From Thermoplasmatales archaeon SW_10_69_26 (GTDB taxonomy: Archaea > Thermoplasmatota > SW-10-69-26), in contig PXUB01000025.1 of NCBI GenBank assembly GCA_003009755.1, positions 78,255-85,114 on the forward strand: DNA of 6,860 bases, read 5' to 3'. The notes under the pieces are model-generated. The model was not told where the DNA came from and did not search any database. It was given only the letters and a program-made list of their open reading frames with translations. Below are positions 4,990-6,860 of the stretch, one piece after another (within the stretch, counting starts at the first letter, position 1; each line of letters begins with the position of its first letter). The position numbers and the translations under genes are program-made.

Positions 4990-5883
4990 GTGTCCGAACG
5001 CGAGGCGCCCACCGTCGACCAGGCGGCGCGCGACATCGAGACGATGGAGGTGCGCGGCGCGGCCAAGATCGCCCGCCACGCCGCCTCGGCTCTGGGGCGG
5101 CTGGCCAGCGAGGGCGCCGACGCCGACGAGCTGCGCGAGGCCGGCCAACGGCTGATCGCCACGCGCCCGACCGCCGTCTCCTTGCAGAACGGCGTTCGCT
5201 ACGTGTTGGCGGGGCTCGATGACGGGCCCGAGGTCGTCGAGGCCCGCTCGCAGCGCTTCGTGCACGATGCATTGCGGGCCAGGGAGCGCGTGGCTCGCAA
5301 CGGCGCCCGCCTGCTGGAGGGCGTCGACGTGGCGATGACGCACTGCCACAGCCAGGCCGCCGCCACGAGCTTGATCGCCCGCCACGACCGCGAGCCCTTC
5401 GAGGCCGTGATCGTGCTCGAAACACGGCCCTGGCGGCAGGGCCTGATCACCGCCGAACAGCTCGCCGACGCCGGGCTGCCGGTCGAGTTCATGGTCGACG
5501 CCGCGATGGGGCGCGCGCTGGAGCGCGCCGAGGTCGCCATCGTGGGCGTGGACACGATCGCCGCCAACGGCGACGTCGTCAACAAGATCGGTACCAGCCT
5601 GGTCTCCTTGGCCGCCGAGGAGGCCGATGTTCCCTTCTACGTCGCCGGCGAGAGCTTCAAGGTCGACCCGGGCTCCGCGACCGGGCACGACGTCGAGATC
5701 GAGGAGCGGGATCCCGCCGAGGTGCTCGAGGATCCGATCGCGGGGGTCGAGGTCGTGAACCCGGTGTTCGACGTGACCCCCGCGGATCGGATCGCCCAGC
5801 TGGCGCTCGAGGCCGGGCGCTTCGCGCCCGAGGAGGCCTTGGACGTGTTCGAGCGCAGCTGGGGCGGCCTCGACGGCGCCTAA
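4990..5883 (+). CDS. Ribose-1,5-bisphosphate isomerase (eIF-2B-like family)
   Basis: 297 residues from the GTG at 4990. It converts ribose 1,5-bisphosphate to ribulose 1,5-bisphosphate, between AMP phosphorylase and type III RuBisCO in archaeal nucleoside-monophosphate degradation. Residues from 4990: EVRGAAKIARHAASAL (about 20-35), TRPTAVSLQNGVRYV (58-72), MTHCHSQA (116-123) with the expected catalytic Cys119, ETRPWRQGLITAEQL (144-158), GVDTIAANGDVVNKIGTSL (186-204) with the expected catalytic Asp188, and VAGESFKVDP (218-227). The THCHS cysteine favours this enzyme over archaeal aIF2B subunits or methylthioribose-1-phosphate isomerase. Length is normal. An in-frame ATG at 4969 would add seven residues, but these fall between the TATA box and the predicted mRNA start, so the GTG is preferred. 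No RuBisCO or AMP phosphorylase is in the window. The acyltransferase follows 30 bases later and may be co-transcribed. Confidence 0.88.
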   Translation: MSEREAPTVDQAARDIETMEVRGAAKIARHAASALGRLASEGADADELREAGQRLIATRPTAVSLQNGVRYVLAGLDDGPEVVEARSQRFVHDALRARERVARNGARLLEGVDVAMTHCHSQAAATSLIARHDREPFEAVIVLETRPWRQGLITAEQLADAGLPVEFMVDAAMGRALERAEVAIVGVDTIAANGDVVNKIGTSLVSLAAEEADVPFYVAGESFKVDPGSATGHDVEIEERDPAEVLEDPIAGVEVVNPVFDVTPADRIAQLALEAGRFAPEEALDVFERSWGGLDGA

Positions 5884-5884
5884 G

Positions 5885-5914
5885 CGGGGGAAAACCGAAG
5901 AACGCGGACCCCCG
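5885..5914 (+). other. Small hairpin in the gap before the acyltransferase
   Basis: CGGGGG (5885-5890) can pair with CCCCCG (5909-5914), with CCG (5895-5897) and CGG (5905-5907) able to pair inside. The 3' arm ends on the first base of the GTG at 5914. It could reduce use of that start or separate the two genes' expression. There is no T-run, so a terminator is not supported. Confidence 0.3.
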
Positions 5915-6669
5915 TGGTCGGCGCGATGGATGGCCCGGGCGAGAAAGCCGGTATCGACGACGGCGTCGCCGAGCGCGTCGCCCAGATCTACCGCCTGGTC
6001 CGCCGGTACTCGCGCCTGGACGTCCACGGCCTGGACTCGATCCCCGAGGGACCGGCCTTGCTCGTCGCCAACCACACCGGCTGGACCGGGTGGGACTTCG
6101 CCAACCTCTACACGGTGATCCACGACGACCTGGACCGGGACCTGTTCACGGCCGTGCACCCGAACTGGTTCAAGCTCGACCGTCTGGCCGAGGTCTCCCG
6201 GCGGTTGGGCATGTACGAGGCCAGCGTCACCGAGACGGTCTCGATCCTCGACGGGGACGACCTGGTCCTGTTCTTCCCGGAGGGCGAGGCCGGCAGCTTC
6301 AAGCCCTTCGGCGACCGCTACCGGTTGGAGCCCTTCCAGCCCGGGTTCGCTCGCGTGGCGGCCGCGGCCGCGGTCCCGATCGTGCCCGTCGTGATCGTGG
6401 GCGGCGAGGAGACCCATCCGACGTTGACCCGGTTGGAGTTCACCAAGGACCTGCTCGGCGTCGGGCTGCCGGTGCCGGCGACGTTGCTCCCGCTGCCGGT
6501 GCGGTGGCGGATCGAGGTGCTCGATCCCGTCCACCCCGACGAGTACATGACGCCCGAGGGCGCCGACCGGGACGTGGTCGAGGACCTGCGCGCGGACATG
6601 GCGCAGCTCATGCAGCGCGAGGTGCAGCGCGTCGTCGACGATCGCGGGCACCCGTTCGTGGAGGAGTGA
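5914..6669 (+). CDS. PlsC-like lysophospholipid / glycerolipid acyltransferase
   Basis: 251 residues. It carries the acyltransferase signatures in order: ALLVANHTGWTGWDFANL (48-65) holding the active-site His-to-Asp block, LFFPEGEAGSFKPF (about 119-132) as the FPEG substrate-binding motif, then GFARVAAAAAVPIVPVVIVGG (144-164). The His-Asp spacing is H-x6-D, not the textbook H-x4-D of PlsC; this longer spacing occurs in the MGAT/DGAT-like branch (NHxGxxPxD). The family moves an acyl group from acyl-CoA or acyl-ACP to a lipid or glycerol hydroxyl at the membrane. The protein has no clear transmembrane helix, so it would bind the membrane peripherally. Archaeal membranes are ether-linked, so its acceptor is unclear. 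Start is uncertain: GTG 5914 or ATG 5926, neither with a Shine-Dalgarno or TATA box. It probably shares the isomerase transcript. Confidence 0.82.
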   Translation: MVGAMDGPGEKAGIDDGVAERVAQIYRLVRRYSRLDVHGLDSIPEGPALLVANHTGWTGWDFANLYTVIHDDLDRDLFTAVHPNWFKLDRLAEVSRRLGMYEASVTETVSILDGDDLVLFFPEGEAGSFKPFGDRYRLEPFQPGFARVAAAAAVPIVPVVIVGGEETHPTLTRLEFTKDLLGVGLPVPATLLPLPVRWRIEVLDPVHPDEYMTPEGADRDVVEDLRADMAQLMQREVQRVVDDRGHPFVEE

Positions 6670-6737
6670 CGGGGCAGCTTCGAGGCAGCGCGAGGGACCC
6701 AAGACGAGAGCGGCGGCCCTCAGAGGCGTCGACACGT
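6670..6737. other. Intergenic spacer, nothing recognised
   Basis: GC-rich sequence between the acyltransferase stop and the first covarying hairpin. I see no gene, no TATA box and no T-run terminator in it. Confidence 0.5.
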
Positions 6738-6785
6738 CTCGAGCATCGAGCCCGCGCGGTGGCTACCGGGCTAGCGATGCTCGAG
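6738..6785. repeat. Structured hairpin unit 1 of a paired element
   Basis: A 48-base unit. Outer arms CTCGAGCATCG (6738-6748) and CGATGCTCGAG (6775-6785) pair over 11 bases without mismatch. Inner arms AGCCCG (6749-6754) and CGGGCT (6767-6772) pair over 6. A 2-base bulge (AG, 6773-6774) lies on the 3' side, and the loop is 12 bases (6755-6766). Unit 2 has exactly the same layout with compensatory stem changes, so structure is what is conserved. The strand of any transcript is unknown. Confidence 0.8.
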
Positions 6786-6812
6786 GATTCGAACGACCTT
6801 CGGTCGTCCTCT
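6786..6812. repeat. Spacer between the two hairpin units, itself able to fold
   Basis: Twenty-seven bases. ACGACC (6793-6798) and GGTCGT (6802-6807) form a 6-base stem with a 3-base loop. In addition GAGGA (6783-6787) can pair with TCCTC (6807-6811), at the cost of the outermost pairs of both units. The array may therefore be three hairpins in a row. Confidence 0.5.
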
Positions 6813-6860
6813 CGCCAGCATCGGGCCCGCGCAACCGCTGTCGGGCCAACGATGCTGGCG
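6813..6860. repeat. Structured hairpin unit 2 of a paired element, ending at the window edge
   Basis: A 48-base unit with outer arms CGCCAGCATCG (6813-6823) and CGATGCTGGCG (6850-6860), inner arms GGCCCG (6824-6829) and CGGGCC (6842-6847), a 2-base bulge (AA, 6848-6849) and a 12-base loop (6830-6841). Compared with unit 1, three paired positions changed on both sides of the stem. Start-to-start distance from unit 1 is 75 bases. Further units may follow outside the window. Confidence 0.8.

Follow-up and report, generated by a model that had tools for sequence, protein, structure and literature searches.

Hairpin arrays at gene edges of a Thermoplasmatales archaeon: possible stacks of minimal integrative elements

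Elements such as e14 and phage 21, found at icd, attach by means of a tyrosine recombinase at the 3' end of a gene and restore that gene, and the core sites usually used by tyrosine recombinases have a short overlap of fixed length. Archaeal integrases target the 3'-distal part of protein genes as well as tRNA genes, one group of them using the 5' half of the latter, and both replaced stop codons and tandem integration have been reported for archaeal integrative elements (PMC6563490; PMC8371274). Casposons insert at gene 3' ends, also in tandem (PMC6563490). Here we describe arrays of short hairpins at gene edges in the MAG of Thermoplasmatales archaeon SW_10_69_26. Their layout is like that of archaeal iMGEs (PMC6563490; PMC8371274) in the location at a tRNA gene or at the 3'-distal end of a protein gene, in a replacement end with possibly another stop codon, in the old end left at the far side and in the tandem stacking. 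Unlike these elements, most units in the arrays measure only ~110-225 bp and carry no genes, the attachment module consists of a long gene-specific palindrome and two more hairpins, and the sites are many and lie in different genes.

The window, i.e. the whole stretch of 6,860 nucleotides analysed here, ends in two 48-nt hairpins of one type, termed X (Table 1). Each comprises an 11-bp outer stem, a 2-nt 3' bulge, a 6-bp inner stem and a 12-nt loop, and forms 17 of 17 stem pairs, exactly as the initial annotation had described them. Its statement that the three stem differences between the units are all compensatory is equally borne out, as pairs 2/47, 4/45 and 12/35 are changed on both sides every time; the bulge reads AG in one unit and AA in the other. 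The folding energies of the two units lie 4.5 and 5.7 sd below those of shuffled sequences, with none of 200 shuffles reaching the same value. The stretch between them forms a third, smaller hairpin (Y) with conserved linkers, which on the minus strand reads GAG-Y-CGAATC, a frame common to other arrays with constant gag and cgaatc flanks. The window array has the order X-Y-X and no detached gene-end copy. Searches of Rfam gave no match overlapping 6738-6860, even at E values up to 1. A CRISPR array was considered and rejected, since stems and loop are not the same in the two window units, and what separates them is itself a hairpin of a recurring type. T or A runs of at least four, the feature of an intrinsic terminator, are absent within 6700-6860.

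A 72-N scaffold gap terminates the window. When the sequence is extended to the right, as had been proposed for counting units, the final 85 bp of the window are found again, without a mismatch, beyond the gap; next come a further hairpin and the 3' end of a gene on the minus strand (L009). It is to this gene, and not to the acyltransferase gene, that the gene-side palindrome of the window array (H, see below) belongs. The exact 85-bp recurrence may represent a true further (third) unit or an unmerged overlap of contig ends, and the assembly fits either. A second dispersed repeat of ~170 bp is found at positions 1067-1233 of the window, at the 3' end of an HTH gene (1089-2132). Inverted repeats (CGCCCTCAGGCGG / CCGCCTGAGGGCG) mark its ends, and the genome contains 45 matches to it with 72-100% identity, several of which lie at contig ends.

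Table 1. Location of the hairpins, the neighbouring gene and island genes
Feature	Location	Strand	Basis or remark
X hairpin, first unit	window 6738..6785	+	covariance model match, 73.5 bits
X hairpin, second unit	window 6813..6860	+	covariance model match, 65.2 bits; scaffold gap separates the rest of the locus
Linker GATTCG, Y hairpin (17 nt, 6792-6808), linker CTCTC	window 6786..6812	.	sequence
Acyltransferase gene (PF01553)	window 5914..6669	+	3' end 68 bp left of the array
N6/N4 DNA methylase with N-terminal HTH, tRNA-Gly island	L159:1757-3046		
BamHI-type restriction enzyme, tRNA-Gly island	L159:3340-4122		

To follow the hairpin through the genome we built a covariance model of X from ten copies and searched the 2.8-Mb genome together with 40 relatives. 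This search, which the initial annotation had suggested, identified about 40 distinct X hairpins in the genome. In an alignment of 38 copies 16 of 18 pairs show changes on both sides, in line with the earlier proposal of a structured element conserved through folding. The covariation score is 0.372, compared to 0.121 in shuffles and at most 0.075 with the pairing partner slid; the structure was defined on ten of the aligned copies, which biases the percentage of paired positions toward the model, while the paired changes and the slid controls do not depend solely on this definition. In most family members the outer stem extends about one pair further, and some copies have a shorter inner stem, from which one base per side has apparently been lost. 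Such covariation could also arise without selection on folding, if imperfect palindromes undergo templated repair in the course of replication; the elements would then be inert. The near-perfect stems and arms, the matching of the model on both strands and the prevalence of paired changes among the differences between X copies agree with this. However, repair is expected to remove or scramble the 2-nt bulge and the parts of the loop that are retained, and it explains neither the placement of the elements nor the gene-end copies described below, so that we consider it very unlikely.

The mosaic to which X belongs is present at about 25 places, in most cases immediately beyond a gene 3' end, and at most sites X lies downstream of and antisense to this end. 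Read on the gene strand, the gene end is followed in order by H, GAG, Y, CGAATC (or a sequence close to it) and X. The array then continues with a further GAG-Y-CGAATC-X or with a second copy of the gene end that has an H and a Y of its own. One unit (gene edge-H-GAG-Y-CGAATC-X) spans ~110-225 bp. The stems and loops of Y vary between arrays while the flanks are constant. H is a gene-specific palindrome and differs gene by gene: one arm is located upstream of the stop codon or at it and pairs with a second arm beyond it, the stop codon itself falls within H, and the loop varies from about 10 to 70 nt. Arms of at least 11 bp (11-19 bp) are present at 12 of 17 array gene ends but at none of 75 control ends, where the maximum is 10 bp. 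This gene-edge mosaic, with its gene-specific palindromes and the detached, recoded gene-end copies, lay outside the single-window view of the initial annotation.

In their general appearance the arrays resemble REP elements and BIMEs (bacterial interspersed mosaic elements), which are also extragenic palindromes forming mosaics with short conserved linkers in many copies per genome. The units described here differ in that they contain a gene-specific palindrome and recoded gene-end copies, and X is longer and bulged. An extragenic palindrome mosaic of this kind would have spread through slippage during replication or the processing of single-stranded DNA, its hairpins would be kept for a stabilising or terminating effect on transcripts at the 3' ends of genes, and the gene-end copies would be by-products of local duplication. 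The fixed linkers, the copy number and strong folds downstream of genes fit this description, as do the H hairpins at stop codons. On the other hand, the Y1/RAYT transposase (PF01797) is absent from this 95% complete genome, while it was found in 5 of 14 control genomes. Units also occur 5' of a tRNA gene, where a role in a 3' UTR would make no sense, and both observations argue against a REP/BIME origin. The lack of a T-run after the window hairpins and the mainly synonymous change of the detached copies, for which local duplication predicts neutral decay, point the same way, and altogether we regard such an origin as unlikely. For the REP-like element put forward in the initial annotation this means that the resemblance stands while the Y1/REP transposase is missing. 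Integron attC sites are similar as well, being arrayed imperfect hairpins with extrahelical bases whose shape is conserved over sequence. The arrays differ from them as there are no cassette genes, no integron integrase was identified here, and the attC boxes GTTRRRY and RYYYAAC each occur in only 1 of 38 X copies.

For each of 20 array genes we compared the terminal 24 nt with the 450 bp following the gene, by nucleotide identity only and with a threshold of 18/24, and used 380 comparisons with other loci as the null. A second gene-end copy at or above the threshold is found for 8 of the 20 genes, whereas the best of the 380 other-locus comparisons reaches 17/24; the remaining 12 have no detached copy at this nucleotide threshold. 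The copies comprise the last codons of the gene plus the stop and lie 108-225 bp downstream. Judged from the translated sequences alone, the genes include TFIIB (NRYKELAEKLDIDIIL*), a COX3-like gene with two copies and an HtpX-like protease. In nine copy pairs we count 5 residue changes compared to 23.3 expected by random substitution, with a minimum of 14 in 100,000 randomisations. When a tenth pair is added that falls below the nucleotide threshold (C27, EASL*, GCC TCG versus GCA AGC), there are 22 synonymous and 5 nonsynonymous codons, and 4 stop codons swapped for other stop codons. The exception is HtpX with three residue changes (RLNDMAY versus RFDDMTY). Decay in place would alter the protein at most changes, and as few such changes are seen, a large part of the divergence appears to date from a time when each copy still served as a working gene end.

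Recombination with diverged strains would account for this synonymous divergence and for the start of the copies directly after X: foreign DNA would pair with the homologous gene body and be joined by illegitimate recombination at the repeated hairpins, so that the recipient's old end stays behind as a fossil. However, about ten independent loci have the same layout, and neither the gene-specific palindromes nor the occurrence of the same module at an integrase island (see below) is explained, and we consider recombination of this type quite unlikely. Alternatively, a transposase or a Cas1-like integrase (casposase) could produce long target-site duplications at gene ends, so that every insertion doubles the edge. 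Casposons are known to insert at gene 3' ends and in tandem (PMC6563490) and duplicate their target, and in one array (C40) a gene-end repeat of 12-15 nt is present on both sides of a unit. The units described here differ from casposons by their tiny size, and their duplicated edges are long, ~15 to 56 nt, and contain recoded codons. Duplication by such an enzyme seems very unlikely to us.

A link to a recombinase is provided by an island at a tRNA gene (C2), in which tRNA-Gly is followed by H, GAG-Y, X, a tyrosine recombinase (PF00589, E 6.6e-13), an N6/N4 methylase, a BamHI-type enzyme and a second tRNA 3' end-H-GAG-Y. The two copies of this att-like module are identical at 93 of 97 nt, X lies just inside, and the H arm is the tRNA 3' end itself. 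The island thus has the layout of a tRNA-gene integrative element, exactly as in the archaeal iMGEs with the old end at the far side, and its attachment module is the same as in the small units, with X in the same place. A direct repeat of the target edge around the insert, by which an integrative element is judged, is accordingly present both here and in the gene-end copies of the 8 array genes. At a tRNA-Ser gene the array is located on the 5' side, where four copies of the tRNA 5' end are spaced by 239, 127 and 127 bp, and a frame beside it has a weak integrase match (19.7 bits, Pfam cut-off 27.1). The small units carry no gene; a tyrosine recombinase is present in the tRNA-Gly island and, as this weak match, near the tRNA-Ser array. 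Of the linkages suggested in the initial annotation, that with a tyrosine recombinase is seen at some sites and that with a Y1/REP transposase at none, while a connection to replication genes is unsupported. Relatives of the island integrase were absent from IMG/VR.

Two tRNA-Arg genes (L105:2255-2329 and 7770-7847) are each followed by an array with a long hairpin, GCTACATCCTATCCTC or CTCAGCTCCAGC, and both hairpins recur in arrays elsewhere, away from their own tRNA-Arg. Near L163:3120-3194 a tRNA-Met 3'-end sequence (GTGGGCCCAGGCGGATTC) is repeated close by, adjacent to a scaffold gap and a Y-type hairpin. At L161:4920-4993 and 5114-5668 a tRNA-Phe gene adjoins a third integrase-like frame, which matches PF00589 at 26.7 bits (27.4 bits when its neighbours are included); hairpin units are absent there.

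The 40 relatives gave only weak, chance-like matches to X, located within coding sequence, so that the copies in related genomes which the initial annotation had asked for were not convincingly found. An X-like pattern had no match in IMG/VR, and a search of the relatives for the Y-linker pattern revealed no array elsewhere. TFIIB, by which the genome is recognised as archaeal, has orthologues in six genomes of the same class, including a fragment from the same family; their C-terminus is the same and none of them has an array. The HtpX orthologue of the same-family genome, which is 75% complete and fragmented, has no array either. As these orthologues are devoid of arrays, the X family looks young or lineage-specific. 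Short hairpins with the Y flanks GAGAG...CGAATC and different stems are present in a genome from another family of the same phylum (G021; L067 ~1500-1530 and L068 ~1207-1237), and this combination of linkers and hairpin may extend beyond the X family. The whole data set is one MAG with scaffold gaps, in which many arrays lie at or near contig ends.

We tentatively favour, with a probability of about 0.4, the reading that the arrays are stacked minimal or emptied integrative elements that lack cargo, attach at gene edges, bring a replacement edge and are moved in trans by a tyrosine recombinase. Such an element would attach at the 3' end of a protein gene or at the 3' or 5' part of a tRNA gene and would supply its own version of the edge, so that the gene stays intact and the old edge is displaced outward; successive insertions would yield stacked units. 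The enzyme would most likely be the tyrosine recombinase of larger relatives such as the tRNA-Gly island. The units would then move or have moved, the folds of H, Y and X would presumably act as DNA in recombination and not as RNA in transcripts, and the gene-end copies would derive from diverged strains. This integrative-element account covers the placement, the gene-edge copies with their synonymous divergence, the tRNA gene that has units on its 5' side and also the island, and is the simplest single account. It leaves the long palindrome H with its variable loop unexplained, and this loop contrasts with the short, fixed overlap that tyrosine recombinase core sites usually have. Junctions of a circular or excised form were not seen in this single MAG assembly. 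A further-reaching version is possible but doubtful: the units could form a new class of integrative elements of ~130 bp that contain no genes and have as their attachment site a palindrome derived from the edge of the target gene itself, each tailored to one gene and carrying a recoded edge, so that the stacks would record past alleles of the gene end.

Even if mobility should prove wrong, the pairing of the gene end with its 3' flank by H at 12 of 17 array genes calls for an explanation. If the integrative reading is true, the units would be among the smallest known integrative elements, and the end of a gene would have been swapped repeatedly with the protein left unchanged. The stacks would then document, much as fossils do, past recombination with diverged strains, and the arrays would offer a clean system for studying how a recombinase uses many unrelated sites that are set by a palindrome and not by sequence.
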